Part shown: positions 46,497 through 63,857 of the stretch, one piece after another | Position numbering within the stretch: position 1 is the first letter of the stretch | Layout: each line of letters starts with the position of its first letter | IMG/VR virus record: IMGVR_UViG_3300048839_000424 | Location: 1-64,000 of that record | DNA from: a virus | Strand: one strand, 5' to 3' | DNA length: 64,000 nt | Notes under the pieces: model-generated | Seen by the model: the letters and a program-made list of their open reading frames with translations, nothing else | Told to the model about the DNA's origin: nothing | Database searches by the model: none | Made by a program: the position numbers and the translations under genes

Positions 46497-46811
46497 ATGT
46501 ACACGTATAAAGGAAGAGTCATTAAAGTCGTAGATGGGGACACGTTGGATGTCGAGATTGACCTTGGATTTGACATCAAACACAGCATTCGAGTTCGACT
46601 GTTGAATGTCCATGCCCCGGAGATCCATTCCGTCAAGAAAGGTTCCGAGGAATATATTCGTGGTATGGAAGCCAAAGAAAAGGTTGACCAATGGGTCGCT
46701 AGCAACCCTGAAGTGAGGATCCTCACGGTCAAGGACAAAAAAGAGAAGTTCGGCAGGTACCTCGCTGAGATTTGGGACATTTCTCACACGTCTTGCCTGA
46801 ACCACCTGTAA
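46497..46811 (+). CDS. Staphylococcal-nuclease-like (SNase) domain nuclease
   Basis: A 104-aa protein. IKVVDGDTLDVEID holds the Asp pair that binds calcium, RVRLLNVHAPEIH the Arg and Glu of the active site, and KFGRYLAEIW the second Arg. The domain cleaves DNA and RNA. I chose ATG 46497 because GAGG lies 6 bases ahead and the SNase fold starts directly; the frame is open to 46446 but that part lies inside the previous gene. No signal peptide, so it probably acts in the cytoplasm, for instance in host DNA breakdown. Confidence 0.8.
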   Translation: MYTYKGRVIKVVDGDTLDVEIDLGFDIKHSIRVRLLNVHAPEIHSVKKGSEEYIRGMEAKEKVDQWVASNPEVRILTVKDKKEKFGRYLAEIWDISHTSCLNHL

Positions 46812-46835
46812 AAATCCTGGGGGTAGAAGCGTTTA
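46806..46835 (+). promoter_or_regulatory. Conserved 30-nt upstream element, copy 1 (diverged)
   Basis: The stretch starts ctgtaaaaa at the stop codon of the nuclease and ends gtagaagcgttta. It matches the copies at 47836 and 48575 at 22 of 30 positions and lies 13 bases before the next ATG. Confidence 0.5.
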
Positions 46836-46848
46836 GGGGGTAGAGCTT

Positions 46849-47841
46849 ATGAACAAGTTGACTAACATGACGAGCTTTGCTCGTAAGACCAAACACAAGA
46901 AGCCAAAATTCCAGTTGTACCAATTCGGTTTTAACGCCGGAACTGGCAAGTGGTTGGAAGGCTCTTGGGTGACGGTTTCCGAGGAAGACTGGATTAGCAA
47001 AAAGTCCGAGCATGAGGAGATGTGTCAACGTATCCTCATGGAGTTGAAAAATTACACCTACAACGGGTTTGGGGTTCCGCTCAACAGGATGACGAAAGAA
47101 CAACGTCAAGCCTGGGAGCATTTTTCAGGGGTCGTGTTTTTTGATGTCGTTTACCCCAATAAATACATAGGCGTTTGGTCAGCAGAGATGTCCGGTAATC
47201 GCTTGTCGAAGCAGTCCGAAGAGTGGGCTCGTAAGCATGATATCAAGCTACTCCAGTGGGTCAAAGAAACGCCCCAGGGTGCGCCCCTTGATAAAGTCAA
47301 GGGGTATGACATCCCTAGTGATCTTATCATAAAAGGCTCCTCCAATAGAGAACCCGTTGACATAGGCCGTCGAATGTTTGATCAAAAGGTGGAGGATGAG
47401 ATGATCCTGTTCTCAAGGATGACTGAGGTCTTAAGAGCAACCGATGCCTTGCCACCTAACTACTCATATCCTCCCGAAATCTTCGTCTCCGATCAAGTCC
47501 AGTTTTTTAGCGGTCTTGTGTTCTCACATCTTGTCTCCCAAGAAGAAAAGATTGTTCGTATCCAATGGGAAGAAAGTTGTGGCAACACACATCCATATAC
47601 GAATGTCGAAAAAGAGCAAGAGCGATACGTTTGGATGCGGAACCTCGCATACAGTAAGTCCTTCGACAAAGCTACCTTTGATGACCGTTTGGCAGAGGCT
47701 CGAAAAGAGCATAACCAGACCGCTAGAGAGGTTCTAGATTCTAGCAACGGATGTAGACTAGCTTTTGTTATCCCCAAATTCTATGAGGATGGGGCGTTTG
47801 ATCCAGTTGGGGAGAAGGACTACCCTTGGGGGGAACTGTAA
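46849..47841 (+). CDS. Hypothetical protein
   Basis: A 330-aa protein that I cannot assign. It starts with a basic segment (FARKTKHKKPKF) and contains aromatic-rich beta stretches (FFDVVYPNKYIGVWSAEM), then a helical, charged C-terminal half with KEQERYVWMRNLAYSKSF. No catalytic motif was seen. It follows a conserved upstream element and may form its own translation unit. Confidence 0.5.
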   Translation: MNKLTNMTSFARKTKHKKPKFQLYQFGFNAGTGKWLEGSWVTVSEEDWISKKSEHEEMCQRILMELKNYTYNGFGVPLNRMTKEQRQAWEHFSGVVFFDVVYPNKYIGVWSAEMSGNRLSKQSEEWARKHDIKLLQWVKETPQGAPLDKVKGYDIPSDLIIKGSSNREPVDIGRRMFDQKVEDEMILFSRMTEVLRATDALPPNYSYPPEIFVSDQVQFFSGLVFSHLVSQEEKIVRIQWEESCGNTHPYTNVEKEQERYVWMRNLAYSKSFDKATFDDRLAEARKEHNQTAREVLDSSNGCRLAFVIPKFYEDGAFDPVGEKDYPWGEL

Positions 47842-47865
47842 AAACTCGTAGGTTAGAGGCGTATA
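47836..47865 (+). promoter_or_regulatory. Conserved 30-nt upstream element, copy 2
   Basis: ctgtaaaaactcgt, one variable base (a), then ggttagaggcgtata. It covers the stop of the previous gene and ends 9 bases before ATG 47875. It is 29/30 identical to the copy at 48575. AGAGG may act as an RBS; the TATA could be a -10, but a start site at the usual distance would fall at the start codon. Confidence 0.7.
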
Positions 47866-47874
47866 AGGAGTGTC

Positions 47875-48153
47875 ATGGATACCGAAGCCCTACTCTCCAA
47901 CGTCGAAGCGAAGCGCAAAGCACGCGCATCCGGCCTTCGAGTCGCCATCGTGAGCATGAACCCCCTTGACAAGACGTATCAAGGCAGGGTTCTTTCCTCC
48001 ACGGGTGCGACATGGTATGAGGTTCGGTTGAATCTCTCTGGTCGTCGTTGTCGTTGTTCTTGTGAGGACTTCCAACGGAATCTCCGACCTTGTAAGCATC
48101 TCGCGGCCTTCGCCAAGGTGCTCAGGGACACCCAGACCGGGGTTGTGGCCTGA
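47875..48153 (+). CDS. SWIM zinc-finger protein
   Basis: A 92-aa protein. The segment RRCRCSCEDFQRNLRPCKHLAAF gives C-x-C, then C-x-H, the SWIM zinc-finger pattern, which binds DNA or proteins. Its N-terminal half is basic and helical. It is a single small domain with no enzyme attached. Position before the ligase suggests DNA metabolism; this is inference. A second SWIM-like protein lies at 58464. Confidence 0.7.
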   Translation: MDTEALLSNVEAKRKARASGLRVAIVSMNPLDKTYQGRVLSSTGATWYEVRLNLSGRRCRCSCEDFQRNLRPCKHLAAFAKVLRDTQTGVVA

Positions 48154-48155
48154 CC

Positions 48156-48566
48156 ATGTTCGATACTCTGTTAGAACTAGGTAAGCAGGTTAGCGAGGCT
48201 CCTGGATTCACCTACCAGAAGGGCATGGTCGTAGTCTACCCCGATTCGGGGTCTGTGGACATGATCGTAGGTGAGGATGAAACCTATTGGCATACCGTCC
48301 CAATGGAGCACGGATTAGTGACTTGGCTCAGAATCAACAAGTCAAAAATGTCATTTATTCCCAAGCTGGATGCTCCTTTGACACGGGCGATCCTCTTGGC
48401 TCAGATTCATGAGCGGTCAAGTAAAACTCGCTCCGTCCACATTGAGCCTTCTCACGAGGGGTTCGTTTGCCATATCCAGAAGGAAGGCGGAGTCGTGGTC
48501 ACCTACTACTCGGACAGCGAAGAAGGTGCCCTAGCCAAAGCCTACTGTGAGTACCCTCACGAATGA
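48156..48566 (+). CDS. Hypothetical protein
   Basis: A 136-aa acidic protein, mostly alternating beta and helix (YQKGMVVVYPDSGSVDMIVG, then FVCHIQKEGGVVVTYYSD). I cannot name the family. It follows the SWIM protein by 2 bases. Confidence 0.45.
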   Translation: MFDTLLELGKQVSEAPGFTYQKGMVVVYPDSGSVDMIVGEDETYWHTVPMEHGLVTWLRINKSKMSFIPKLDAPLTRAILLAQIHERSSKTRSVHIEPSHEGFVCHIQKEGGVVVTYYSDSEEGALAKAYCEYPHE

Positions 48567-48574
48567 GAATCTAG

Positions 48575-48604
48575 CTGTAAAAACTCGTGGGTTAGAGGCG
48601 TATA
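48575..48604 (+). promoter_or_regulatory. Conserved 30-nt upstream element, copy 3
   Basis: Same as the copy at 47836 except that the variable base is g. Here it lies in the gap after the stop, 6 bases before the ligase ATG at 48611, so the match is not explained by coding sequence. Confidence 0.7.
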
Positions 48605-48610
48605 GCAGTT

Positions 48611-50509
48611 ATGCAGACACCGGACCAGATCGTGGACTTGCTGATGGCGGCTAAGGACGCCTATTATAACGGCGATCCTATCATGACCGATGCGGATTTC
48701 GATGCCTTGGAGGATCGTCTCCGAGACCTGAATCCCAAGCATCCGTATTTCCGTATGGTCGGCGCAGCGGCGCCAACGGATACGAAATGGAAGAAAATGC
48801 TCCATAGCATTCCGATGGGATCTTTGGACAAGGCACAGGACCATGCGGAAGTCGTTTCTTGGTATCAGCCGGACAAGGGAAACCTTGTTGTTACTGAGAA
48901 GCTAGACGGAATTTCCATCTCCCTCGAATACGAGGATGGGGTTTTTGTTCGTGCGATCACCCGAGGTGATGGTATCGAAGGTGAGGATATCACCCGTAAC
49001 GTGATGCTCATGGATTTCCCGAAGAAGGCTTCGAACCTGACGGGACATGTCCGTGGAGAGATTATTCTCACCAAGGCGAACCATGTTCACCTTCCAGAGT
49101 ACAAGAATCTCCGCAATGCCGCAAGTGGCATCGCCAAGCGTGAAAAAGACGCAGAGGCGTGCAAGTACCTTTCGGTCATGGCGTACCAAGTGATCTCCAA
49201 GGAACTAGTTTTCCCTCGTAAGGAGACGGAGATCCTGGTTCTCCAGAAGCTCGGATTCACAACCCCCAACTACACCCTTGCAACCTCCTTGGAGGAAGTC
49301 GAAAATACCTACGAGGTATATGTCCACTCGATTCGTGAGGGGCTGAACTACGATATTGATGGACTGGTTGTCGAGTATGACGATTTGTCGGTGATGGAGG
49401 AACTTGGGGTAAGCTCATCGGGCCGTCCACGAGGGGCCATCGCGTACAAGTTCCCACATGAGGAAAAAACCGCGACCTTGGAAATGATCGTGTGGCCTAC
49501 TGGTCCTACGGGTCGAGTGACCCCCGTGGCGAAGTTCTCTCCGGTGGATCTGATGGGTGCGACGGTGGCCAAGGCTTCTTTGCACAATGTTGGAAATATT
49601 CAGCGGATCACGAATAAGCAGGGGTTCCGTATTGGAGACAAGATCACGGTTTCTCGTCGAAATGACGTGATCCCTTATGTAGAGCGGCTTGTTTCTGCCG
49701 GTAAGGGCGAGAAGCTAGAGACTCCGACCGTGTGTCTCTCGTGTGTTCATCCGTTGACGCGGGTTGGTGAGTATCTGGTCTGCCAGCAAAAGAACAACTG
49801 TCCAGCACAGATTCTTGGTAAGCTGACCAATTGGGTCAAAAAGACCAATACGATGGATGTCGGTCCCGCGATTTTGGAAGCGGCGGTCAACGCAAGTCTT
49901 GTGTCATCTATCTCGGACTTGTACGGTCTGGCGGAGTCAATGTGGCGTAAGCTCAAGCTCGAAGGTCGGGTCATGGGAGACCTTGGGGCCATCGTGTATA
50001 ATTCAATCATGGGCAACACGGTTCTACCACCGGAGATTATTCTCGGCAGCCTGAATATTGACCTTTGCGGTCGAACCACCTGCAAGACCATCCTGGATAG
50101 TATCTCCTACAAGCCGGGCTCGGTGGCGGATTTGACTCTAATCCCCACCAAGGTCTCATTCGACCAGTTGTCCAAGATCCCTGGCATCGGACCACAGAGG
50201 GCTAAGGCGTTTCTCGATGGTATCACAGAAAACCACGATGAGATCCTCGAACTTGCTCACTTTTTGAGTTTCCCCAAGCGTATCACTAGCGGCAAGGTTC
50301 TCGGTAAGACCTTTTGCTTCACTGGATTCCGAGATCCCGCACTGGAAGCTCGAATCCAGAAGGAAGGCGGAGAAATGAAGTCTTCTGTCGTCAAGGGACT
50401 GGACTACCTCGTGGTAAAGGACAAGAGCACGTCGTCAACGAAGGCTCAAAAGGCGCAGTCCCAGGGTACGATGATCGTGAACCGTCAAGAGCTAGAGGCC
50501 ATGCTATGA
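48611..50509 (+). CDS. ligA: NAD-dependent DNA ligase
   Basis: A 632-aa full-length LigA. Domain Ia (YYNGDPIMTDADFDALEDRL), the adenylation motif EKLDGISI with the nucleophilic Lys at about residue 97, RGEIILTKANH, the NAA.G segment (NLRNAASGIAKR), the OB part (GPTGRVTPVAKFSPV, then SLHNVGNI), a four-Cys zinc finger (CLSCVHPL...CQQKNNCPAQ), helix-hairpin-helix (LSKIPGIGPQRAKAF) and a C-terminal BRCT (GKTFCFTGFRDPALEARIQK) are all present. It joins nicks using NAD+ during replication. Most phages carry an ATP-dependent ligase; a complete bacterial-type enzyme is less usual. It is preceded by the conserved upstream element. Confidence 0.95.
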   Translation: MQTPDQIVDLLMAAKDAYYNGDPIMTDADFDALEDRLRDLNPKHPYFRMVGAAAPTDTKWKKMLHSIPMGSLDKAQDHAEVVSWYQPDKGNLVVTEKLDGISISLEYEDGVFVRAITRGDGIEGEDITRNVMLMDFPKKASNLTGHVRGEIILTKANHVHLPEYKNLRNAASGIAKREKDAEACKYLSVMAYQVISKELVFPRKETEILVLQKLGFTTPNYTLATSLEEVENTYEVYVHSIREGLNYDIDGLVVEYDDLSVMEELGVSSSGRPRGAIAYKFPHEEKTATLEMIVWPTGPTGRVTPVAKFSPVDLMGATVAKASLHNVGNIQRITNKQGFRIGDKITVSRRNDVIPYVERLVSAGKGEKLETPTVCLSCVHPLTRVGEYLVCQQKNNCPAQILGKLTNWVKKTNTMDVGPAILEAAVNASLVSSISDLYGLAESMWRKLKLEGRVMGDLGAIVYNSIMGNTVLPPEIILGSLNIDLCGRTTCKTILDSISYKPGSVADLTLIPTKVSFDQLSKIPGIGPQRAKAFLDGITENHDEILELAHFLSFPKRITSGKVLGKTFCFTGFRDPALEARIQKEGGEMKSSVVKGLDYLVVKDKSTSSTKAQKAQSQGTMIVNRQELEAML

Positions 50510-50751
50510 TTGTTTTCAAGACAGAGACGGGTAGCGTCTATCAATGGGACAAGGAGCAAGGGAGAATCCGTAGGCTCTCTGGGGATACACCTCCAACGAG
50601 CCGTGTAGGAGATGGATGGAAAACAGCGATCCATGTTCACCTGGAAGTAGGTCGGTCAGCGGTTATCGTCTGGGCGATCACGGACGAAGGGATCTCGCAA
50701 ACGACGGTCACCTCCTTTGTAGTGGAGATTAATCATGCCGAGCTTAATTAG
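50506..50751 (+). CDS. Small hypothetical protein
   Basis: An 81-aa protein starting at ATG 50506 in an ATGA overlap with the ligase; the longer frame to 50314 runs inside the ligase and is rejected. MIVFKTETGSVYQWDKE and then beta strands (AVIVWAITDEG) suggest a small beta domain. The family is unknown. Confidence 0.45.
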   Translation: MIVFKTETGSVYQWDKEQGRIRRLSGDTPPTSRVGDGWKTAIHVHLEVGRSAVIVWAITDEGISQTTVTSFVVEINHAELN

Positions 50752-50992
50752 TCAACTCAATGACTTGTCGGTGTCAGTTAGCTCACTTCGCTACGTGCGA
50801 ATTCTGCTTGCTAGTCAACAGATCGTAGGCTATACTTTGATCACCGACGATGATTTTCAAGCGTTGGACGAGAACAGCACCTATCAGGTGCCCTCAACCC
50901 GATGCTTGGAATTTGATGATCTAGAGAAGGTCATCAATTTCTGTGTGCAACAAAAACTCACGCTCGATGGAGCGGTGGAAATTTACCTCTAA
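50735..50992 (+). CDS. Small hypothetical protein
   Basis: An 85-aa acidic protein (MPSLISQLNDLSVSVSSLRY) with an alpha/beta pattern. It overlaps the previous gene by 17 bases. Not recognised. Confidence 0.4.
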   Translation: MPSLISQLNDLSVSVSSLRYVRILLASQQIVGYTLITDDDFQALDENSTYQVPSTRCLEFDDLEKVINFCVQQKLTLDGAVEIYL

Positions 50993-51006
50993 CCAAACAG
51001 ACAAAA

Positions 51007-51222
51007 ATGGAACTAATCAGCAAGGAACAGGCAAAGCTCATTCGTACTCTAGGCGCACCGGATGATGGGGATGTATACCCTCTCGGACCCGGCAAGAACG
51101 CGGAGTTCGATGCCTCCAAGAAGGGGTTCACTATCCGAATCAACGGCAAGATCGTTGGAACAGTCCCCCTTCGAGCGGTGATGTCAGGAAGCAAGGATGA
51201 TGGCTCCCGAGAAAACAGTTGA
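51007..51222 (+). CDS. Small hypothetical protein
   Basis: A 71-aa protein with MELISKEQAKLIRTLGAP, then FTIRINGKIVGTVPLRA. Not recognised. The 3' end overlaps the frameshifted gene that begins at 51197. Confidence 0.4.
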   Translation: MELISKEQAKLIRTLGAPDDGDVYPLGPGKNAEFDASKKGFTIRINGKIVGTVPLRAVMSGSKDDGSRENS

Positions 51223-51409
51223 TTGGGAGACGCTTTTGAAGCAAATGGAGACCCTTCATAGGGGGGTCTCCTTTCTTCTGTTGCCTACACGAACGTCACC
51301 GAAGTGTTCTCTCGTACAGAGGGCGCTCGAAAACCAGAGGTCTGTCTTCTTCCCAACTTTGAGGATGATGGGGAAGAAGCCGTATTGTCATGGTCCTATC
51401 AGGGTATAA
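51197..51409 (+). pseudogene. 5' part of a gene apparently frameshifted at a G6 run
   Basis: ATG 51197 (or 51200) opens MAPEKTVDWETLLKQMETLH. This frame runs to 51409, but after the GGGGGG at 51261-51266 its sequence loses protein-like character, while the -1 frame gives GLLSSVAYTNVTEVFSRTEG, continuing the 51304 ORF. A -1 shift at the G run would produce one protein of about 120 residues. The cause may be programmed slippage, a true mutation or a sequencing error. Confidence 0.5.
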
Positions 51410-51558
51410 GGTCCAAGACCGTTTCCCTGGAGTTCACAACCGACCGAATCTCATGGTTCGTGATGGATGGTGAAAAATGCCTCGGGGGAAATGGAACAAA
51501 GATCCCGGATTGGGTGTATGATACCATCCAGAGAGTATTCCCAGAGGAGTCGCCATGA
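51304..51558 (+). CDS. Hypothetical protein, 3' part of the frameshifted gene
   Basis: The frame from GTG 51304 gives 84 residues (FSRTEGARKPEVCLLPNFE, then SLEFTTDRISWFVMDGEKC). No RBS precedes the GTG and the same frame reads sensibly back to the G6 run at 51261, so the real N-terminus probably lies in the ORF starting at 51197. ATGA overlap with the next gene. Confidence 0.45.
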   Translation: MFSRTEGARKPEVCLLPNFEDDGEEAVLSWSYQGIRSKTVSLEFTTDRISWFVMDGEKCLGGNGTKIPDWVYDTIQRVFPEESP

Positions 51559-51893
51559 ACTCAGATAAGACCAAGTGGGTGTTAGTGAATAACGACGCGC
51601 AGACTACATATACCTTGGGTAATGAGAATTGGCCAAGTTTGAATGGGAAGTCCCCGGAGGAGATTGCTTCAGAAGATCTCCTAGAGAAACTAATGGACGA
51701 CGTGTTTCAGTGGACTGAAGATTATATGCACCACGAGGAATTGGTAATTTTGAGCCTGATCTGGGAAAAGCTCAAATCTCTAGTGACAGAAAATCCTGTG
51801 CTAATCCTCTCTGAATCAGAGGTTGAGGAGCACTGCAAAGGGTATACAAGCATCGGAGAGCTAACCTTAGATAGTCTATGGTATGGAGAATAA
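51555..51893 (+). CDS. Hypothetical acidic protein
   Basis: A 112-aa, strongly acidic, helical protein (EEIASEDLLEKLMDDVFQW). Very acidic small phage proteins sometimes mimic DNA or regulate host proteins, but nothing here proves that. Not recognised. Confidence 0.4.
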   Translation: MNSDKTKWVLVNNDAQTTYTLGNENWPSLNGKSPEEIASEDLLEKLMDDVFQWTEDYMHHEELVILSLIWEKLKSLVTENPVLILSESEVEEHCKGYTSIGELTLDSLWYGE

Positions 51894-51896
51894 ACC

Positions 51897-53659: not shown

Positions 53660-53668
53660 GCGTATAGT
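53657..53668 (+). promoter_or_regulatory. GCGTATA element before the DNA polymerase
   Basis: tgagcgtatagt begins in the stop codon of the previous gene and ends 11 bases before the polymerase ATG. It resembles the core of the elements at 36045, 47836 and 48575. Confidence 0.3.
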
Positions 53669-53679
53669 GTCAGATAGCT

Positions 53680-56600
53680 ATGGAAGATTTCCTGAATTGG
53701 TCTGAAGAAGAACGCCGCCCTAAAGTCCAGAAAAAACCCTGGATGGACCACAAGAAGATGGTTCTGGGCACCGTTGATAACCTCGACGATATCATTGACG
53801 AGTGCATCAAATCGGGACGGTACGCCATCGACCTCGAAACGACGGGGTTGAATAAAAACTCGTATCAGGTTACGATTACGGAAGGTCGAACGAAGGACCA
53901 AATCGTAGGGGTCTGTTTATCCCCCGATGGGAATGTTGGATACTATCTCCCTATTCGCCATCGGAAGGGGGAGGAGCATAACATCCCCGTCTCTCGGGTG
54001 GAGAGGGCGCTACGGAAGTTGGTGGAGTCTAATTCAGTAGCGACTTTTCATCATGCTCGATTCGACCAGGAGTTCTTGCAGTTCTCGGGAGGAAATAATC
54101 CCATCGGTACATGGGATGACCCTAAAAAATGGGATGACACGCTGATTCTAACATATCTCATCAACACCCGAGAGCACAATAAGGGACTGAAGCATCAGTC
54201 CAAGGTTCAGTTGGGTTTCGAGATGATCGAAATTGACGAGTTGTTCCCAGAGGACCACAAGGGAGGATATGACTTCTCCGAGTTGGACCCCTCTTGGGAA
54301 CCCGTGCTTTGGTATGCGGCTTCGGATGCGATCTGTACTTACTGTCTGTATGAAAAAATCTCCCCCATCGTATTGAAGGGGACATCAGAGAGGAAAGCAC
54401 AGGATCAGGTCTATCTCCTGGAGAAGATGTGTCTCCCTGCGACTCGATGGATGGAACGGGTTGGAATCAACATTGATCAGAACGTGGTCATTGACTTGAT
54501 TCGACTTGGACAGAAGGAGTTTTTCACCTGTCTTGAGGAAACCTACGACTTCCTGAATGCCAACCTTGGGAGAAAAGTCGAGCCCGGTTGGTTCTCCTTG
54601 CTCCGAGCGAAGAAAAATCTCGATGACGTAGACTTCAATATCTCGGACCAAATCGAGGAGTTCCGTAAGGAAGCCAAGCGTGAGGGAATGGATGCCCTTG
54701 ATGAGAAGGGGCATTACCTTGTGCTAAAACAGCATAACGGGGAATGGCCAGAGAAGTACGATATTCTTTCTCGACCCCAGCTAGGGCCTTTGTTTGAGGA
54801 GTTGGAGATCCCTGACCTTGCCCGTACTGAAAAATCAGGGCAAGTCAAGACCACACAGGATGAGATTGATCGTCTCTTTCAGAAGTTCGGAGATCAGTAC
54901 CCGTTCCTGCCAAAAATCAAGAGGCTAGGTGAGTTGCAGAAAGCCTTGGGGACGTATTTAATCTCTCTTCGACGGGATGTTGGTCCTGATGGTTGTTTGC
55001 ATCCGTACTACAATCAGTTGGGGACGGATACGGGAAGATATACGACCCCGAGTTCGGATAAACCTCAGTTGGACGGGGGCACGTCTTTCCCTGTACATGG
55101 AACACCGGCTACGTATGACACGAGCCGTCCCGCCTGTCTATTGGGTATTCGCAAGGCGGTCAAAGCCCGTAAGGGGAAGGTTCTTGCGGCATGTTTTGCA
55201 GAGGGTAGCCTAGTCTCAACAAAGAGAGGTTTGATCCCTGTAGAACAAGTCGAAGATACAGACGAGGTTCTCACGGAGGATGGGTGGAAAACCGTATCTT
55301 GGGCTGGCTATACGGGGGATAAAAACACAATAGCAATACAGACTCAAAAAGGGTTTGAGCTTCAAGTTACCGAGGACCACCTAATCCTAATTGCGGGTGA
55401 GAAAGGCTTCTCTTGGAAAGAAGCAAAGGATCTACAATCAGGAGATTGGGTTGTGCAAGTATCCGGTCATCCAATAGGGCAATCTGATAAGTTACCCGAA
55501 ACACCTTGGTCATCCAAAACTATTTCAGTGGTGCAAGAAAAACGCTATCCCTTGAAAACGCCTTCTTATATGACTGAAGGGTTAGCTGAATTTCTCGGTA
55601 GATTTATGGGTGATGGTTCAATCTCGCATGATAACGAATCCCCTGTGTCTGTAAACATTGCCTTGGGGTTAGATGTTAATGAATTACTGCCCAGCCTCAA
55701 CAGGACCGCAAAAGCATTGTTTGACCGAGAATTTGTGCATAAAGGGAGAGGGGATGTTACCATTAGCTCTCGTGTGTTAGCTCGTTGGTTGTGCCTGATT
55801 ACCAACAAAAATAAAGATGTCACAGAATTAGAGGTGCCTCAAGCTATTCTAAGAGGGGGTGAAAACCACACTGCTGCTTTCTTGAGAGGATTGTTTGATG
55901 CTGATGGATCGATAAAGAATAGAAAAGGTGACAATATAACCCTTTGGGTTACTTCAACAAAAATGTCACAACAAGTGCAGTTGATGCTACTGCACCAAGG
56001 CATCCAAGTACGTCGAGTTTCCTGTTCGAGAATAACAAACTTTGGAAGCATCCAAGGGTGGGAAATATCTATTTCTGGTATCAAAAACCTTGATCGGTTT
56101 AAAGAACGGATTGGTTTTTTGACACCACGTAAAACTGAACGCCTCAATCGTTTATTGGCATCGGGGAGAAATAGGGATATGTCCGAATTTTTCCCATTGA
56201 GTCTTGCTAAACAAGCGGTGATATGCCCACGGAACGAAAAAACTCGAAGGGTATTTACCAATGGTAGGCGAAAAAACCGGGTAAGTCGTCATCTGCTAAA
56301 TGCAGCACTACACCACCAAGAGGACTTGAATATGGAGTGGATGCACCTGCTTTTAGATGGACCTCTTTTATTTGATACTGTGGTGCATACCTCTCAGGTT
56401 GGAATCCAGAAGGTATATGATGTAACAGTACCGGAGGGTCAAAAACTCCAGGTGAATGGACTCCTTGCTCACAATTGCGACTTCGGTGGGGTTGAGTTGC
56501 GTATTGCTACCAATCTGTCCCGAGAGCCCAAGTGGATGAAGGAGTATTTCCACTGTAGCTCTTGTGATTTGATCTTCGACAATGGGGATGGGGAGAGCAC

Positions 56601-58452
56601 TCCGATTCCTCCACCGGCTTACTGTCCTCGATGTGGTTCAGACAAGATTGGAGACCTTCACACGTTGACGGCGTTGGCTTTCTACGGTGAAGACAAGGCA
56701 AGTACGAAGGAATTCAAGCAGCTAAGACAGAACGCCAAGAGCGCAAACTTTGCGCTGGCATATGGAGGAGGCCCTTCCGCATTGATGAGGGCTACTGGTT
56801 GTGATGAGAACGAGGGTGCAAGGCACCATAGAACGTTCAATCAGACCTACTCGGTACTAAAACAATGGTGGGATGACACGAAGTCTTTTGCCAAGAGACA
56901 TGGATATGTAGCGACGGCCTTTGGTCGTCAGTATCCGTTACCTGACATCAAGTTGCCTATCACACCGGCTGAAGAACCGGACCCACAGAAGCGGGAGATG
57001 AATCGTAAGTTTCGAGCGAAAGCGGAACGAAACGCTACGAATGGCCCGATTCAGGGTTGTATCCATCCTGAAGAGCGTATCCTAACATCACTAGGGTTCC
57101 TACCCATTGAGGAGCTTGATCGTCTAGGTCAGTCTTTTATGGTGTGGACTGGAAAATCCTGGTCAGAGGGACGGGTGTTCTCGTCTGGTCTGAAAGAGGT
57201 CCGCAAAACAACACTGGATTCTGGGCGTGAGCTAAAAACTAGCCCTGACCATAGATTCCTAACTTGGCAGAGAGGTGTTTTAGGGTGGACCCCTCAAAGT
57301 GAGCTATCCACGGGGGACTGGGTTGCTATCAATTCGAAGGACATTAGTCTCCTACTAGGAGATGGTAGTGAAAAATCACTATGGCTTGGTTGTGGTGACA
57401 CGGCCCCACCTGAATTAATCAAGTGTGTAGGGGAGGTGGTCAGAGCGTCCTCTATTTGGGCTACCCTAACAGCACCAGAAAAGTCAGCGGTGTCTAGGCT
57501 CATGGTGGGGTCTGGAAGCAAGCCTCAATGTGTAAAATACCTGAGTCGAGTACCTGAATCCGAGGCCCCTGCATTCTTGTGGGATTACCTGGAATACGAT
57601 TGGGAGAGAGTGACCACCCTTGAAAATCTCGAAGAACAGGTCGGGATGTTTGATATCGAAGTGTTCGACAAGGAGCACGCTTTTGTAGCTAACGGTGTCG
57701 TAGTCCATAACTGTTCAGCGGACCTGACGAAATTGGCAATGGGTCTGATCTACAAAGAGGTCAAGAAACGCGACTGGTTCGAGAAGGTCCATATGATCAT
57801 TTCGATCCATGACGAGTTGGTGTTCGAGATTGATAAGGACATCTTGGCGGAGGCGCTAGAGGTCTTTCAGGACATCATGACTCGTAACAAGGCGGTTCTA
57901 CAACTCAAGTGGCCCGTGCCTTTGACTACCGATTGTGAGATCGGGTATGACTGGACCGTCAAATGGAATCTCAAGGACTTTCAAGCCCGTCGAGTTCGTT
58001 CTGATGGTGTTCAAGTCGATGAGAAGGGGAAGCCCGATGGCAAAGTGTGGCCTGAAGAGTTCATTCGTATCTTCGGAAGTCGATATGGCTTCGCAGATTT
58101 GCCTATAACGGATAGTAATACTAAGCAGGATGAAGAAAGCACGTCCAACATACAAGCCTCTCAAGAGCCCACGGCGCCCTATCAAGAGTCCAAAGGCGTA
58201 ACCCCTAGCGTAGCACCCCTCCAAGTGGAGAAGCCACAGCGAGGCGACAGCTACGTTTTCCAGTTACGGACTTTGAGCATTGGTGTTGCCGATAGACTCG
58301 CCCAAGTCATTGTTCAATGTGAGGGTCGAGGTACAAATCTGTTGGAGATTCGCACTCCGACGGGAGAAATTATTGCTCCTGGGCCAGAGAAGATCTACGT
58401 GAACCCGTTGGAGTTCGCAACGGTTGCTAAAATCCACGGTTTGTTAGGGTAG
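53680..58452 (+). CDS. polA: Family A DNA polymerase with 3'-5' exonuclease and two inteins
   Basis: A 1590-aa precursor; after removing inteins at residues 505-932 and 1127-1344 about 944 residues remain. The exonuclease has AIDLETTGL (Exo I), HHARFDQEF (Exo II) and YAASDAICTYCLYE (Exo III). The polymerase has DTGRYTTPSSDKPQLD, motif A (CDFGGVELRIA, split by intein 1), motif B (RQNAKSANFALAYGGG) and motif C (ISIHDELVFEI). Unusually, a CSSC...CPRC zinc ribbon is inserted between motif A and 'LHTLTA'. A C-terminal extension of about 190 residues follows the polymerase core. It replicates the phage genome. Confidence 0.92.
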   Translation: MEDFLNWSEEERRPKVQKKPWMDHKKMVLGTVDNLDDIIDECIKSGRYAIDLETTGLNKNSYQVTITEGRTKDQIVGVCLSPDGNVGYYLPIRHRKGEEHNIPVSRVERALRKLVESNSVATFHHARFDQEFLQFSGGNNPIGTWDDPKKWDDTLILTYLINTREHNKGLKHQSKVQLGFEMIEIDELFPEDHKGGYDFSELDPSWEPVLWYAASDAICTYCLYEKISPIVLKGTSERKAQDQVYLLEKMCLPATRWMERVGINIDQNVVIDLIRLGQKEFFTCLEETYDFLNANLGRKVEPGWFSLLRAKKNLDDVDFNISDQIEEFRKEAKREGMDALDEKGHYLVLKQHNGEWPEKYDILSRPQLGPLFEELEIPDLARTEKSGQVKTTQDEIDRLFQKFGDQYPFLPKIKRLGELQKALGTYLISLRRDVGPDGCLHPYYNQLGTDTGRYTTPSSDKPQLDGGTSFPVHGTPATYDTSRPACLLGIRKAVKARKGKVLAACFAEGSLVSTKRGLIPVEQVEDTDEVLTEDGWKTVSWAGYTGDKNTIAIQTQKGFELQVTEDHLILIAGEKGFSWKEAKDLQSGDWVVQVSGHPIGQSDKLPETPWSSKTISVVQEKRYPLKTPSYMTEGLAEFLGRFMGDGSISHDNESPVSVNIALGLDVNELLPSLNRTAKALFDREFVHKGRGDVTISSRVLARWLCLITNKNKDVTELEVPQAILRGGENHTAAFLRGLFDADGSIKNRKGDNITLWVTSTKMSQQVQLMLLHQGIQVRRVSCSRITNFGSIQGWEISISGIKNLDRFKERIGFLTPRKTERLNRLLASGRNRDMSEFFPLSLAKQAVICPRNEKTRRVFTNGRRKNRVSRHLLNAALHHQEDLNMEWMHLLLDGPLLFDTVVHTSQVGIQKVYDVTVPEGQKLQVNGLLAHNCDFGGVELRIATNLSREPKWMKEYFHCSSCDLIFDNGDGESTPIPPPAYCPRCGSDKIGDLHTLTALAFYGEDKASTKEFKQLRQNAKSANFALAYGGGPSALMRATGCDENEGARHHRTFNQTYSVLKQWWDDTKSFAKRHGYVATAFGRQYPLPDIKLPITPAEEPDPQKREMNRKFRAKAERNATNGPIQGCIHPEERILTSLGFLPIEELDRLGQSFMVWTGKSWSEGRVFSSGLKEVRKTTLDSGRELKTSPDHRFLTWQRGVLGWTPQSELSTGDWVAINSKDISLLLGDGSEKSLWLGCGDTAPPELIKCVGEVVRASSIWATLTAPEKSAVSRLMVGSGSKPQCVKYLSRVPESEAPAFLWDYLEYDWERVTTLENLEEQVGMFDIEVFDKEHAFVANGVVVHNCSADLTKLAMGLIYKEVKKRDWFEKVHMIISIHDELVFEIDKDILAEALEVFQDIMTRNKAVLQLKWPVPLTTDCEIGYDWTVKWNLKDFQARRVRSDGVQVDEKGKPDGKVWPEEFIRIFGSRYGFADLPITDSNTKQDEESTSNIQASQEPTAPYQESKGVTPSVAPLQVEKPQRGDSYVFQLRTLSIGVADRLAQVIVQCEGRGTNLLEIRTPTGEIIAPGPEKIYVNPLEFATVAKIHGLLG
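55192..56475 (+). other. Intein 1 of DNA polymerase (motif A site) with LAGLIDADG endonuclease
   Basis: The 428-residue intein runs from CFAEGSLVSTKRGLIPVEQV to LLAHN before Cys-Asp, so splicing joins VLAA to CDFGG at the catalytic Asp. FLGRFMGDGS and LRGLFDADGS retain the acidic residues, so the endonuclease may be active. The DNA appears more AT-rich than the polymerase exons. Confidence 0.88.
57058..57711 (+). other. Intein 2 of DNA polymerase (PIQG site), mini-intein
   Basis: The 218-residue intein runs from CIHPEERILTSLGFLPIEEL to GVVVHN before CSADLTKLAM. Block B (SPDHRFLTW) and the terminal HN are present but no LAGLIDADG helices, so it is an endonuclease-free mini-intein. Base composition looks like the exons. 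Confidence 0.85.
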
Positions 58453-58463
58453 GGTGTTAGTAC

Positions 58464-59480
58464 GTGAGCAAGCCTAAAAAGAGTCTCCCCACCATCCAAG
58501 AGCATGTGATGGGGATGATAAAAAAGGACAAGTTCGATTCATTGCAGATCTGTAATGATCCTCGGACTCCGTTCTACATGGACAATGCGAAGTTCACCCA
58601 GACGTTTTGCCGCCGATGTCGCAACGAGGAATGTATTCGAGCCGGTGGTGCGCAAACCCCTTGGCATTGGCGCATGGAGAACCAACCCGAGTATCTACTC
58701 AACAACCCCATTTTTTCCGACATGGGGACGGATGAACATAAGCGGTTGGCTGAAATGGCATTCAAGCTCATTAATGACAAGATGCAGAGGATTGAGATTC
58801 AGTCTCAAACCTGGGAGCCATTAGACCAGATTGACCTGCCCTCGGATGGTATTGACCGAGTTTCCTCACCTGCTGTCACGGATGAATTCGATGAAGCCGC
58901 CAAGGTTTTGTCGAAAGCCAAGGGGAAGAAAGTCAAGGAGTTCCCCAAACCACAGGAGTCTACGCAGGAAAAGCCCGCGAACTTTATCGAAGCCCCACCT
59001 GACGTATCAACCCCATCCGAAGATAACAATCCTCCAGAAGAGGAAAGTGATGAGGGTGTTTTATTCGAGACTCCATTCGTATCGAAGGATGGAAAAACGA
59101 CGTACCGGGTATGGTTGGACAAGGATAGCTATTGGCATTGTACATGTGAGGGGTTCAAACATAAGGGCACCTGTTACCATGTCGTTGAGACCGATGCCTG
59201 GTTGAAAAAGCAGAGTCAAGAAGCAGAGGAGAGAGAACGAGAGGCGGAGCGAGTTCGGAATCTCCCACCTCCACCACAACCGAAACCCGTGAATCCTTCG
59301 ACCCTGAATACACCTCCGCCCACGGCTGGCGTGATGATTGGAGGGGGGACACCACCACCCACGGCAAGTCGATTGCCTCCTGCACGGGTTATCCCCGCTG
59401 TTGACGACCCTTGGTCAGCCCCCAAGGAAAAAGTCGTAAAACCCGGTGCTAAAATCATCGTAGGTAAAAAAGATGACTAA
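58464..59480 (+). CDS. SWIM-like zinc-binding protein with proline-rich tail
   Basis: A 338-aa protein starting at GTG 58464. The N-terminal part has a Cys cluster (FCRRCRNEECIRAGG). The middle is acidic and Pro-rich. WHCTCEGFKHKGTCYHV (about residues 224-240) is a C-x-C/C-x2-H SWIM-type motif. The C-terminal 80 residues are Pro-rich (LPPPPQPKP, TPPPTA). The combination suggests an adaptor that binds DNA or protein. It is the first gene after the polymerase and overlaps the next by 8 bases. Confidence 0.5.
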   Translation: MSKPKKSLPTIQEHVMGMIKKDKFDSLQICNDPRTPFYMDNAKFTQTFCRRCRNEECIRAGGAQTPWHWRMENQPEYLLNNPIFSDMGTDEHKRLAEMAFKLINDKMQRIEIQSQTWEPLDQIDLPSDGIDRVSSPAVTDEFDEAAKVLSKAKGKKVKEFPKPQESTQEKPANFIEAPPDVSTPSEDNNPPEEESDEGVLFETPFVSKDGKTTYRVWLDKDSYWHCTCEGFKHKGTCYHVVETDAWLKKQSQEAEEREREAERVRNLPPPPQPKPVNPSTLNTPPPTAGVMIGGGTPPPTASRLPPARVIPAVDDPWSAPKEKVVKPGAKIIVGKKDD

Positions 59481-60492
59481 AGACGAGCTACTGTCTCATC
59501 CTGCCATTGGTCTTGTACTTCGAGACATTCGAGAGGGTCGCCTAGACCTGAAACATGCCTTAGAAGAAATATCCAAGGTTCTCCCGGTTGAAGTAGATGC
59601 CGTCGAGAAGGTCTTGATGGAGTTGTTCTCGGAGTTGAAGCAAGACCTAGTTCTCTACACAGAGGACAGCGATAATCGTCTCCAGGAGTTGGGTCTTACG
59701 AAGGAAGACCTTGTATTCCAACCCGACCCAGACCGGGACACGATCATGCTGAACCCGATGTTCCAGGCTTTGCTCGTGGAGATTCTTCAGTTCGATGGGG
59801 ATATCCCAGAGCTTCGCACAGGGGACTTACCAGAAGGAGCAACGCCAGCGGTTCCGGTTCATTCGAGTTCGGTGACCAACCCCGTTCTTCTTGGAGAAAT
59901 GTTGAAAAGGGCGTCTTCGACCGTCCATGAAAAACTCAACGAGGCTCGATTAAAGATCCTCACGTCAATCAACGACGTGTCCGAGAACACGGCCTTGACG
60001 CCCTATGAGAAAAAACAAGAGCTAGCTCGGTTGGTTAGCACCCCCGTGAGTATACCTGGGTACGAACCTGGAAAGCTGGCCAAGCCGGTCACGGTAACTG
60101 TCGCTCCAATGGAGGTCGAGAGTTTGTCAGACAGGGACAAGCAAGACTTAGCACACAAGGCGTTGACCAGCACGCAGGGGCGAAGATCATCGGTTTCAAC
60201 GATTGAGACGCTTGTGATGGAGGAACTTTTGAGAGAGGGGTTCCAAGGGGTGTCCGTTGGCCCCGTGAAGAACCCTTTGATTCGTACTGAATGGAGTACG
60301 TCGATTGATGGAGGGAGTCGAGAAATTAACCCGAAGTTCTCGTACATCCAAGTAGCGGCTCGGTCCTTGGCTCGCCAGATTAAAAATGAGATTGCAGGTA
60401 AGGCTGGGAGATATTCTCACTTGAGCCTATCCGTGCGGCCTTTGAACACGGTCAGTGAAAGTAGAGTTGGGTTTGTAGCGGAATTGGAGTAA
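59473..60492 (+). CDS. Hypothetical protein
   Basis: A 339-aa protein, acidic and helical in its first 200 residues (LKHALEEISKVLPVEVDAVE), then an alpha/beta C-terminus (ETLVMEELLREGFQGVSVGP). No recognisable motif. The 5' end overlaps the SWIM-like gene. Confidence 0.45.
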   Translation: MTKDELLSHPAIGLVLRDIREGRLDLKHALEEISKVLPVEVDAVEKVLMELFSELKQDLVLYTEDSDNRLQELGLTKEDLVFQPDPDRDTIMLNPMFQALLVEILQFDGDIPELRTGDLPEGATPAVPVHSSSVTNPVLLGEMLKRASSTVHEKLNEARLKILTSINDVSENTALTPYEKKQELARLVSTPVSIPGYEPGKLAKPVTVTVAPMEVESLSDRDKQDLAHKALTSTQGRRSSVSTIETLVMEELLREGFQGVSVGPVKNPLIRTEWSTSIDGGSREINPKFSYIQVAARSLARQIKNEIAGKAGRYSHLSLSVRPLNTVSESRVGFVAELE

Positions 60493-60501
60493 TACGGATA
60501 C

Positions 60502-60825
60502 ATGCTGACCATTAATTCGTTGTTCAAGCTCAACACGGTGTTTAGTCAGGCGGTTCAGGAGGATGACGAGTGGTTCGTCATCATGACCGTTGAGAAGTAT
60601 GCGGAGAAAGCTCGTGCTTTGTTGCTGTCCCTTCCTAATGCGATGCTTGGGGGTAGAACGGCTTTGCTCCGAAACGGGACCAGGGTGTCTGTGGTAACGT
60701 TAGATACGGACCTGAAGCCCGATGGTAAGAGCGTGATGTTTTTTGGGCTGGAGGAGGAAATGCTCTCCCCTTCCTTCGAGGAAAAAGCTCTTGTGTGGAG
60801 AAAGTCCGCACGTAAGATTCTATGA
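60502..60825 (+). CDS. Small hypothetical protein
   Basis: A 107-aa alpha/beta protein (MLTINSLFKLNTVFSQAVQ). Not recognised. It overlaps the next gene as ATGA. Confidence 0.4.
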   Translation: MLTINSLFKLNTVFSQAVQEDDEWFVIMTVEKYAEKARALLLSLPNAMLGGRTALLRNGTRVSVVTLDTDLKPDGKSVMFFGLEEEMLSPSFEEKALVWRKSARKIL

Positions 60826-61250
60826 AGACTCAGTACACATTCGTGATTTCCGGGGGTGATCCTTTGACGTTACAGTTGAGGGGGTGTCCACCTATGCGAT
60901 ATGAGGGTCCGGGGTCTACGGTGTTCCATGTCATTTGCACGCGGGAGGAAGCTCTTCATGTTGAGATGACTTTCAAGGAAGCCCACTGCAAGGTCGTTGT
61001 CCATACGCATGGGGAGACGGTCGAGCAGAAACAAATGAGGGTCAATCTTCTTGCATTACAGGGGGAGAACAGTTTTCCGACGAAAGACTGTCCCTCTTGC
61101 CCTTGGTTTGATCCCGAGATTTCAGGTCTCTGTGGGGCTGGTAAGACTGGGAGTGAGCAATACTCCGAAGCTGTGATTAAACATCAAATGAAGTCGGAGC
61201 GATTTAAGGACGCCTACAACAACTGCACATGGGACACGAAATCAAACTGA
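60822..61250 (+). CDS. Hypothetical protein with C-terminal cysteine cluster
   Basis: A 142-aa protein. DCPSCPWFDPEISGLCGAGK plus a later NNCTW gives four cysteines that could bind zinc or an iron-sulphur cluster. The first 80 residues are beta-rich. Not assigned. It overlaps the methyltransferase gene by 22 bases. Confidence 0.45.
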   Translation: MKTQYTFVISGGDPLTLQLRGCPPMRYEGPGSTVFHVICTREEALHVEMTFKEAHCKVVVHTHGETVEQKQMRVNLLALQGENSFPTKDCPSCPWFDPEISGLCGAGKTGSEQYSEAVIKHQMKSERFKDAYNNCTWDTKSN

Positions 61251-62032
61251 CGCCCGCATTGGAGGGCCTGAAGGGGATGGATTCTTCAGTAGGGCTCGTA
61301 GTTACGGACCCACCTTACAACACGTTGGAAAAGTGGCGTGCTGTAGGGACGACGACCAGGCTTACCAAGTCGGATGCAAGTTCGAATGAATGGTTCCCTA
61401 CAGTTGACTTCGACTATTTAAAGGACGTGTTTCGAGAGTGCTACCGGGTATTGAAGCCCAATACTCACATGTACATCCTGTGCGATGAGGAGACGGCGGA
61501 TCACCTAAAACCCATCGTAGACGAGATTGGATTCAAACGGAAGAAGTCCTTGATTTGGCACAAGGTCGGTAAAAAAACCGACGTTCACTGTCCAAAATGC
61601 GGCACTTTTGTTCACACGACGAACAGCCCCGGTGCTCCAGGTATGGGTTATCCGTATCGATCATCGTATGAGATGATTCTCCTGTTGGAGAAGGGGAAGC
61701 GCCCTATGCCTACGGATTTGAGCGTTCGGAATGTGTTGAGTTTCCCGTACCTGAAGGGAAAGTCGTACTACCCTACGGAGAAGCCGGTAGACATGTTGGA
61801 GGTGTTTATCACTCAGAGTTCCAATCCTGGAGATTTAGTTCTTGACCCGTTTGCTGGAAGTGGTTCGACTGGTGTAGCAGCATACAATTTGGGACGAGAA
61901 TTCCTTGGGTTTGACGTGCAGGAGAGAAGCCTGGAGTATTTTTCATCTCGGTTGGGTGAGGTGTCTCTAGTATCCGATACGGAGGATACCAAGAGTGAGC
62001 CCAGCGTCTTTGACCTGTTTGGGGATGAATGA
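61229..62032 (+). CDS. Complete beta-class DNA methyltransferase (N4/N6)
   Basis: A 267-aa enzyme. VTDPPYNT (about residues 25-32) is motif IV and LVLDPFAGSGSTGVAAYN (about 203-220) is motif I, in the beta-class order. 'LKPNTHMYIL' and 'YPTEKPVDMLEVFI' are the flanking conserved parts. HCPKCGTFVH suggests a small zinc knuckle in the recognition region. It ends VFDLFGDE, similar to the DLNELFG tails of other methyltransferases here. The product would be methylated C or A on phage DNA. ATGA overlap with the next gene. Confidence 0.88.
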   Translation: MGHEIKLTPALEGLKGMDSSVGLVVTDPPYNTLEKWRAVGTTTRLTKSDASSNEWFPTVDFDYLKDVFRECYRVLKPNTHMYILCDEETADHLKPIVDEIGFKRKKSLIWHKVGKKTDVHCPKCGTFVHTTNSPGAPGMGYPYRSSYEMILLLEKGKRPMPTDLSVRNVLSFPYLKGKSYYPTEKPVDMLEVFITQSSNPGDLVLDPFAGSGSTGVAAYNLGREFLGFDVQERSLEYFSSRLGEVSLVSDTEDTKSEPSVFDLFGDE

Positions 62033-62568
62033 TGGATGTATATCTAAAGGGGTTAGGTCTACAACAGACGGCGGAGTCCTTAAACACTTTTTACAGGGAG
62101 GATGATCGCACCGTAGATTTGATCTTAGTGACTAAACCACGTTCCTTCCAACTGACCACCATAAATGACTTCTCTCAAGTTGAGACAGTTCACATACCCT
62201 CTATCAAAATAGGTTTCAGATTATCCCGTGGGTTTTTAGTGCCTCAAGACGACCATCAGTGGATGGTTCTTGAAGCCTTGCATGAAATGGTGGCGAATTA
62301 TGGGATTTACTGTGACCCCAGGGCGTTCTCTAAAATCGAGGTTGCAATGGATTGGGGTAGTAGTACTACCCCTGTCCTTCGGTTTTTGCCGTTGGCAAAG
62401 CATCCGGTTTGCGACTCCTATGACTTTCACCCTGAACTAGAATGTCCGGGATGTGGGTCACAGTTTTACAACCCTGCTGATCCTGTACTATGGTTAGGTA
62501 CTCCAATTGGGTACGTTCATGAGAGGTGCGTTGGGAGTATACTGAGTGATGCTACACCCGGACGTTGA
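62029..62568 (+). CDS. Hypothetical protein with zinc-like motif
   Basis: A 179-aa protein. Its C-terminal part has LECPGCGSQFYN followed by VHERCV, a C-x2-C/H-x2-C pattern that could bind zinc. The N-terminal two thirds are alpha/beta. Not recognised. ATG at 62029 or 62032; the former overlaps the methyltransferase stop. Confidence 0.45.
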   Translation: MMDVYLKGLGLQQTAESLNTFYREDDRTVDLILVTKPRSFQLTTINDFSQVETVHIPSIKIGFRLSRGFLVPQDDHQWMVLEALHEMVANYGIYCDPRAFSKIEVAMDWGSSTTPVLRFLPLAKHPVCDSYDFHPELECPGCGSQFYNPADPVLWLGTPIGYVHERCVGSILSDATPGR

Positions 62569-63016
62569 ACAGTGGATCGATGAAAATCCTCGTGAGGGAT
62601 TCGCGTTTAATAACATGCCTGACAGCTATCCTGTCAAGCAGTTGGTCATCAATTCCATCCTCAAGGGGTCAATACCCCAGATTTTGCTCCTGGAACTCAA
62701 TTACTTCATGAACGCCTATGAGCACTATCGAAAGGTAGGTGTAGACTGTTCGGAGGAGCTAGAGTCCTCAAAAGGGCTACGTCGCCCCTATGACCTCAAA
62801 ATTGTCGCTTGGAACCTCTACCGGAAGAATAGTGAGAAAGTCTTCCGCGTAGATTTCACTACCCCTCACGGTTGGAGTGGGTATTTTGACACGAACAATC
62901 CTTCAGTCTTGTCCAGACTCAAACAGGACACGGTGGTAACCATCATTGGGGAGATTGAGTCCGTCGTCACTCCCTACTATGTTGTACTAGGCGGGAAAAT
63001 TGGAGTATCGAAATGA
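62546..63016 (+). CDS. Hypothetical protein, possible OB-like C-terminus
   Basis: A 156-aa protein. The N-terminal half is helical. The C-terminal end (TVVTIIGEIESVVTPYYVVL) has the strand pattern of a small beta barrel, perhaps OB-like, as in DNA-binding proteins. Not assigned. It overlaps both neighbours. Confidence 0.4.
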   Translation: MMLHPDVEQWIDENPREGFAFNNMPDSYPVKQLVINSILKGSIPQILLLELNYFMNAYEHYRKVGVDCSEELESSKGLRRPYDLKIVAWNLYRKNSEKVFRVDFTTPHGWSGYFDTNNPSVLSRLKQDTVVTIIGEIESVVTPYYVVLGGKIGVSK

Positions 63017-63393
63017 CGGATACACTTGAAATAGATCATGCTGAACTGAGACGGATGCTTCTTACGGTCACAAATCAGCACCCTGAACTTCTCCTGACAG
63101 CGGTTGAAGTCTCGCAAGCACTCTCTGAGTTTGAGGTGCAACTTAATCAGAACCCTTTGACAAAGACCTATGCTGAAGCACAGCAAGGTAAAGGGGCCTA
63201 CTACACCGTAACCAGTCAAGGGAAGATTGAGATTCATAAAGCTGGTCGAAGAAAAAAGTCCAAGGTGGAATACGAGGATGTTCCGAAGACCGGACCTGAT
63301 GAGACTCAGACGCACCCGGATATTGAGACTCCCCCCAAGGGATTTTTTAAGACCGGAGACGCCTTGACCCAGCCCGAAGTCGTGTCTGACTAA
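63013..63393 (+). CDS. Hypothetical protein
   Basis: A 126-aa protein (MTDTLEIDHAELRRMLLTVT). The first half is helical and acidic; then a basic stretch (KAGRRKKSKVEY) and a Pro/Asp-rich tail. Not recognised. Confidence 0.4.
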   Translation: MTDTLEIDHAELRRMLLTVTNQHPELLLTAVEVSQALSEFEVQLNQNPLTKTYAEAQQGKGAYYTVTSQGKIEIHKAGRRKKSKVEYEDVPKTGPDETQTHPDIETPPKGFFKTGDALTQPEVVSD

Positions 63394-63404
63394 TTACGCT
63401 ATAA

Positions 63405-63423
63405 CGCGGGTTAGTTAGAGGCG
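63405..63423 (+). promoter_or_regulatory. Diverged copy of the conserved upstream element
   Basis: cgcgggttagttagaggcg carries the GGGTTAGAGGCG core of the elements at 47836 and 48575, with a 4-base TTAG duplication. It ends 11 bases before ATG 63435. Confidence 0.4.
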
Positions 63424-63434
63424 GTGGTAAAAAA

Positions 63435-63857
63435 ATGCCCTTTCCAAGATGTCAGCCGAAGCAAAAGAAGGTTCAGACGAAAGAACCTCCGATTAATTTC
63501 TGGATGACAGAAACGGGGGACAATATGTTGAAGGGTTGCTGTGGTGATGAGGAAAACCCCATCAAGCTCGGTGACTGCTTCATCGTCGATGCTTTGCAAA
63601 GAAACCCCAGGGCAAGATCGGATTTTTGTCTGCTTTACCCCACGCTCTCTGAATGTGAGAAAGAGCGGTTTGATGTCTTGATGCGGGATAATCCGCTGTT
63701 GTTCAAGATGATCACGGATTGTCAGTCGTTGACTGACAAGTTCCAATCCGCTCTCAACAAAACGCCTATTTATACGGCGGGACCACAGGGAGGGAGAAGA
63801 CTACCCATTGGATGCGCACCTCTCCCGGTCCATTTAAGAACGAAGGGGTGTTGCTAA
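63435..63857 (+). CDS. Cysteine-rich hypothetical protein
   Basis: A 140-aa protein with several cysteines (LKGCCGDEEN, GDCFIVDAL, FCLLYP, SECEKERF, and KGCC at the end). Probably a small metal-binding or disulphide protein; function unknown. Its stop overlaps the next start as TAATG. Confidence 0.4.
   Translation: MPFPRCQPKQKKVQTKEPPINFWMTETGDNMLKGCCGDEENPIKLGDCFIVDALQRNPRARSDFCLLYPTLSECEKERFDVLMRDNPLLFKMITDCQSLTDKFQSALNKTPIYTAGPQGGRRLPIGCAPLPVHLRTKGCC

Follow-up and report, generated by a model that had tools for sequence, protein, structure and literature searches.

The stretch of DNA analysed here (the window, 64,000 nucleotides) comprises bases 1-64,000 of the 78,215-base virus record IMGVR_UViG_3300048839_000424, which is a fragment of a huge phage genome. 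The subject of this analysis is a 30-nt element that is repeated directly upstream of start codons in the window and that we interpret, with a probability of a little over three in four, as a phage-specific bipartite promoter. All the genes called within the window lie on the plus strand, and convergent minus-strand open reading frames (ORFs) follow after position 75361. Gene calls come from ORF tiling only, and the genome is incomplete.

Copies of the element and the genes behind them

Three copies of the element, all on the plus strand, were found where the initial annotation had placed them, at 46806-46835 (22/30 identity), 47836-47865 (the reference) and 48575-48604 (29/30). Each contains TG-TAAAAA and, after a 17-nt spacer, a second hexamer. 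In copy 1 (46807-46837) TAAAAA occupies 46809-46814 and TTTAGG 46832-46837, and the element stands before an ORF of 330 amino acids (46849-47841, plus strand). Copy 2 (47837-47867; TAAAAA at 47839-47844, TATAAG at 47862-47867) precedes a SWIM zinc-finger ORF (47875-48153). This ORF belongs to a two-gene cassette (47875-48566, plus strand) that lies between copies 2 and 3 and encodes the 92-amino acid SWIM zinc-finger protein and a 136-amino acid protein. Copy 3 (48576-48606; TAAAAA at 48578-48583, TATAGC at 48601-48606) ends 4 nt before the ATG of an NAD-dependent DNA ligase gene (48611-50509, plus strand; phrog_3869, E 3.5e-144). As had been noticed, the first two copies overlap the preceding stop codon: the CTG-TAA of the element ends ORFs at 46811 (ORF 46446-46811) and at 47841. 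Copy 2 also overlaps a Shine-Dalgarno-like AAGGAG at 47865-47870. Measured from the ends of GCGTATA or GCGTTTA, the distance to the ATG is 6-13 nt, in agreement with the initial annotation.

A mismatch-tolerant search of the whole record revealed a fourth copy at 76032, on the minus strand and outside the window. It reads TGTAAAAA-N15-CGTTTAG and is followed by AAGGAG and by the ATG (75984) of a 207-amino acid protein with a lipoprotein-type signal peptide and lipobox. All four copies are intergenic and share the form TGTAAAAA-N15-CGTWTA (where W is A or T), i.e. TAAAAA, 17 nt and T(A/T)TA, with an identical gap. A further core, GGGTTAGAGGCG, which had been reported at 63405, is absent: the sequence there is GGGTTAGTTAGAGGCGG, and the common part is limited to the 10-mer GTTAGAGGCG (63414-63423, plus strand), which was not counted as a copy because no CGTWTA comes after it. 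The shorter GCGTATA cores reported before the helicase and polymerase genes are real. GCGTATA(AT) lies at 36049-36055, 11 nt before the ATG (36067) of an SNF2-type helicase, and GCGTATA(GT) at 53660-53666, 13 nt before the ATG (53680) of PolA; both are on the plus strand and neither has TAAAAA at N17. Two such extra matches near 61 called starts correspond to P = 3e-4.

Fixed spacing in this record and private elements in relatives

On the basis of second-order Markov simulations, TAAAAA-N17-TWTA is expected 0.067 times in the 78-kb record and is observed 4 times, while TAAAAA with TWTA at any other spacing from 11 to 23 occurs 0 or 1 times each. For TAAAAA-N15-CGTWTA, 4 sites were observed as compared to 0.017 expected. 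When the near-identical pair is counted as one, P(≥3) is 5e-5, or 6e-4 after correction for the 13 spacings. An all-against-all comparison of upstream regions gave the same four sites, with 20-29/30 identity, the best score of shuffled regions being 19/30. The motif search that had been proposed as a check on the element, run over the 78 kb, therefore shows enrichment upstream of genes. Spacers agree at 16/17 positions between copies 2 and 3 and at 7-11 of 17 between the divergent copies, which suggests a recent duplication for copies 2 and 3 but not for the other two.

The proteins of this record match those of LR745208.1, a 485-kb uncultured phage, with synteny across structural and replication genes, and further relatives form a clade of viral contigs (here numbered with the prefix G) with lengths up to 536 kb. 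The closest by protein is G007 (152 kb; 68% across a 1891-amino acid protein), followed by G001 (116 kb; 64%). Relatives were reached by aligning this phage with LR745208 or G001; none came from querying IMG/VR with the exact element, nor from ligase-only or helicase-only scans. The element pattern had no match in 28 related records (about 7 Mb), and 13 relatives compared as sequence gave a single match in total, in the AT-rich G4. The 330-amino acid ORF matches no known family, and neither this ORF nor the two-gene cassette has homologues by tblastn in LR745208, G001-G004, G007 and G008; the region of the element, between a DNA methyltransferase gene and the ligase gene, is for this reason a variable stretch.

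Signatures of the relatives were derived from upstream k-mers and spaced dyads, the 5-6 base signatures being picked after seeing the data. On coding DNA, which served as the negative control, dyads with p of about 1e-10 to 1e-11 can arise by chance. For this reason, only dyad signals well past the control p, or with a single-spacing peak, were accepted, and the argument is carried by the spacing peaks rather than by dyad p-values. Expectation-maximisation motif finding on 20-60 upstream regions returned noise only. Five large relatives each contain their own bipartite element, with near-fixed spacing, in 34-83 copies, and these elements are mutually exclusive. LR745208 has TAAA-N15-(A/G)CCGATA at 49 sites, plus 3 at N16 and 2 at N14 (54 with spacing 14-16); its extended form, CGATTTCnC-TAAAAA-N15-(G/A)CCGATAGGG with N15 counted from TAAA, is usually followed by TGAGGA and ATG. 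CTTACT-N13-GCGTAG(AT), whose second-block sequence is given as GCGTAGAT, is present in G029 at 62 sites and at zero sites with any other tested spacing. In G010 we found GGTAAC-N15/16-(A/G)GTAG at 83 sites (52 and 31), in G013 CTTAT-N15-AGTAG at 34 sites and in G022 CTTAA-N18-CGTA(T/C) at 38 sites. The distance from CGTA(T/C) to the ATG in G022 is 7 nt (24 cases) or 8 nt (14 cases), with respect to 0-6 cases at other distances. This placement is what leaderless promoters would look like, and in copy 3, before the ligase gene, CGTAT stands 7 nt from the ATG, the distance seen in G022.

The signature-by-genome cross-matrix is almost diagonal, each signature being nearly absent elsewhere, and the sites of the relatives fall in intergenic DNA well above the random share. 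The geometry is near-constant: AAAAA-N15-CG(T/A) describes both this phage and LR745208, and CTTA(C/T)-N15-(C/A)GTAG both G029 and G013, with G022 deviating (N18). A sequence resembling CCCTTAACTTC-N11-TCCGTT occurs three or four times in G003, and no bipartite element was detected in G011. GG(C/T)GTAAG (in LR745208, G001 and G003), weighed as the same element as GGCGTATA, is enriched upstream of starts and has variable spacing and no partner block.

Some further features of these genomes were observed. Elements of the form CTTAAnCTT-N-CGTACTA, 7-8 nt before ATGs, make G022 (a 452-kb phage) a candidate for genome-wide leaderless transcription. Many of the 62 sites in G029 are followed about 15-30 nt downstream by a short GC-rich inverted repeat (e.g. 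GGGCGCCTGAGGTGCCC), possibly a 5' stabilising stem, the mean folding energy being only slightly below that of shuffles. A second enriched upstream element, CCTATAG(G), occurs in G008, G010, G029, LR745208 and G001, structural genes included, and is possibly a late promoter.

Promoter reading and its alternatives

A sigma-dependent promoter is built in just this way: two directional, non-palindromic blocks lie 16-17 bp apart, the second is TATA- or GATA-like, and the pair stands in front of genes on either strand. The fixed-spacing block pair, the enrichment upstream of genes and the orientation toward the gene are those of a phage-specific sigma-type promoter. The initial annotation had left two options, a leaderless promoter or a translational or RNA-processing signal containing AGAGG. 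The promoter option is favoured by the fixed spacing, by the opposite-strand copy before a well-formed lipoprotein gene and by the private elements of five large relatives, and from these we infer promoter function; a translational or processing signal is not retained as the main role. TG-TAAAAA would be the -35-like block and CG-T(A/T)TA(A/G) the -10-like block, with 17 bp between the hexamers. The promoters would drive genes 46849, 47875 and 48611 within a long, otherwise back-to-back operon, so that each of the three, the last being the ligase gene, would have a transcript to itself; the copy at 76032 would drive the lipoprotein gene on the other strand. Only 6-13 nt separate the -10-like block from the start codon in the window, which would put the 5' end of the transcript at the ATG or a few bases ahead of it. 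The ligase transcript is predicted to be leaderless or nearly so, and that from 76032 to have a longer leader with AAGGAG; leaderless geometry fits the former (CGTAT-N7-ATG) but not the latter. The TAA of the -35-like block would double as the stop codon of the preceding gene in two copies, and only mRNAs reading through from upstream would make use of the AAGGAG of copy 2. Ahead of the helicase and polymerase genes, the lone GCGTATA may be a weak version that consists of the second block alone.

The sigma70 and sigma28 consensus sequences do not account for the element. The TATA had been considered as part of a sigma70 -10 box, but a consensus scan that required a TTGACA-like -35 and a TATAAT-like -10, with four or more matches out of 6 in both and 16-18 nt between them, did not pick up any of the three window copies, and TAAAAA matches TTGACA at 3/6. 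The sigma28/FliA consensus is TAAAGTTT-n11-GCCGATAA, i.e. TAAA-N15-GCCGATAA (PMC2859248). LR745208 fits it at 49 sites and thus appears, from its sequence, to use flagellar-sigma-type promoters. The window element has TAAA in common with it, as well as a similar second block, GCGTATA(A/G); it departs from the consensus by a spacing of 16, where 15 is the rule, and by two differences in that block, and by this measure does not qualify as a sigma28 promoter. In this record no TAAA-to-GCCGATAA site exists at spacings 10-20, as compared to 49 at N15 in LR745208. A degenerate sigma28 promoter was also considered and dropped, as both spacing and -10 differ. The sites of LR745208.1 with sigma28/FliA geometry (e.g. 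15298+, 25763+, 59243-) are concentrated in its first 160 kb.

The element might instead be an operator for a DNA-binding repressor or activator, since a DNA-binding protein made of two domains would also suit bipartite sites of fixed spacing, and two such domains are present in the tandem helix-turn-helix protein described below. The blocks, however, are directional rather than palindromic, a 16-17 bp spacing with a TATA- or GATA-like second block suits -35 and -10 elements, and the LR745208 element equals a sigma28 promoter; we consider an operator improbable. Slightly less probable still is a composite translation-initiation signal (AGAGG or AAGGAG plus spacing) on read-through mRNA, with the similarity further upstream being incidental. 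In favour of this, TAGAGG is overrepresented ahead of genes in the 78-kb record (6 vs. 0.22 expected), and the end of copy 2 contains an AAGGAG that would be lost if transcription started at the element. But what is conserved is TGTAAAAA and CGTWTA at fixed distance, not AGAGG, which reads AGAAG at 46806, is missing from the copy at 76032 (AGTTATCG) and is 12 nt from the ligase ATG (48611); moreover, a ribosome-binding signal needs no TAAAAA 30 nt upstream. A Shine-Dalgarno sequence (AGGAGG-like, 5-10 nt before the start) conserved among the copies was not found, AAGGAG being present only at copy 2 and 76032. Given the enrichment of TAGAGG, the element may have a weak accessory role in ribosome binding. 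The least probable alternative is that the copies at 47836 and 48575, 29/30 identical with the spacer included and set in a variable region, are duplicated DNA or a module boundary that came to flank the cassette by duplication or recombination with no regulatory role, given that the divergent copies at 46806 and 76032 retain exactly both blocks with their spacing and face the gene that follows them in the same way, and that relatives have dozens of copies with equal architecture. Duplication can also be a route of promoter spread, and in this respect it is partly compatible with a promoter.

Several observations weigh against the promoter interpretation. With only four copies in 78 kb, two of them near-identical, there are about three independent sites, and the partial likeness of the spacers (7-11 of 17) makes dispersal of one ancestral sequence possible. 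The 4 nt between hexamer and ATG at the ligase gene are tight even for a leaderless start, and the helicase and polymerase genes carry the -10-like block only. No bipartite element was found in G024 (400 kb), nor was one detected in G007 and G001, the closest relatives by protein. Finally, the 78-kb fragment contains no detected sigma-like gene, that of the tandem-domain protein included.

Repeated intergenic motifs correctly predicted promoters in phages 7-11, phiEco32 and Xp10 (PMC4331800), and in AR9, where 33/34 early promoters were correct (PMC5312081). Like those of 7-11 and phiEco32, the repeats described here are few, highly conserved, intergenic and detected by upstream comparison; a phage sigma factor enables the host RNA polymerase to read theirs (PMC4331800), whereas here the sequences are other, the phage group is different and much larger, and the putative promoter lies in a fragment in which no complete sigma factor is known. 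Jumbo-phage promoters of the AR9/phiKZ type were likewise predicted by motif over-representation, and then confirmed by 5'-end mapping (PMC5312081), but the motifs there are AT-rich or of AACA type, and the multisubunit RNA polymerases that use them are encoded by the phages. Cargo ("moron") genes of temperate phages carry autonomous promoters. The likeness here is in promoters of their own before variable accessory genes within phage operons; the differences are that one of the genes encodes a DNA ligase also found in G001 and G007, and that nothing shows a temperate life cycle.

A candidate reader and the meaning of the element

No gene for the beta subunit of RNA polymerase was found in 15 records of the clade, which makes the host RNA polymerase the likely enzyme; a phage factor probably redirects it. 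For this factor the strongest candidate would be a conserved protein of about 200 amino acids in the related phages, with two tandem helix-turn-helix domains similar to sigma region 4. Sigma-region-4 matches were obtained in 13/14 relatives, mostly in one tandem-domain family, and 12 of these proteins align as a single family of this length and domain arrangement. In LR745208 the loci are 419693-420296 (minus strand) and 153829-154692 (plus strand). An AlphaFold model of the tandem protein (mean predicted local distance difference test score 75.5, N-terminus poor) has two helical bundles; solved sigma region-4 domains fit it locally (e.g. 8jzt_A, template modelling score 0.84 of the target), with weak overall E-values, none below 0.001. 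Judging from the model, each tandem domain resembles sigma region 4. Region 2 (PF04542) is absent from this record and from LR745208; G022, judged by reading the translated matches, encodes one FliA-like protein that seems to possess a region 2. The two signatures closest to each other, those of G029 and G013, go together with the two tandem proteins closest to each other (68%), a correspondence confounded with kinship. The tandem protein may be what reads the promoters.

Other features of the record were noted as well. The Dam-like methyltransferase gene (42888-43958) contains a 48-nt tandem repeat in five copies (43263-43550). Coding ends at 34272-34297, 43933-43958 and 45913-45938 of the window have the sequence GATTTGAA(C/T)GAGTTATTCGGATGA, giving a common C-terminal tail, DLNELFG, partly on methyltransferase-like genes, that resembles a clamp-binding tail. 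PolA (53680-58452) contains an intein with Hint and LAGLIDADG domains; the SNF2-type helicase (36067-39822) apparently also has one, its intein-like parts being similar to those of PolA. A chaperonin-like phage protein is encoded at 31694-33247 (Cpn60_TCP1, E 6e-43). On the minus strand, the end of the contig (75361-78215) encodes a lipoprotein with a (GD)n linker, a Cys-rich protein and a VWA protein, which may be cargo or a hint to the host. We take the lipoprotein and VWA genes to look myxobacterial; a genome scan for a relative of them found none.

Taken broadly, these observations allow the tentative and rather doubtful proposal that in a clade of 400-540 kb phages, none of them with its own RNA polymerase, the promoter language is rewritten from one lineage to the next, with tens of private bipartite copies in near-constant geometry and a tandem sigma-region-4-like reader, sigma-like and without the usual region 2. 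The element makes transcription accessible from sequence in uncultured huge phages that do not encode an RNA polymerase themselves, and private signatures permit the listing of candidate promoters genome by genome. As the signatures of the relatives are mutually exclusive and their geometry is similar, the clade is a natural experiment on the co-evolution of promoter recognition and its reader, and its comparison points to where the reader protein should be sought. The near-fixed placement of the element 7-8 nt from the start codon in one relative also gives the finding a bearing on leaderless translation in phages.

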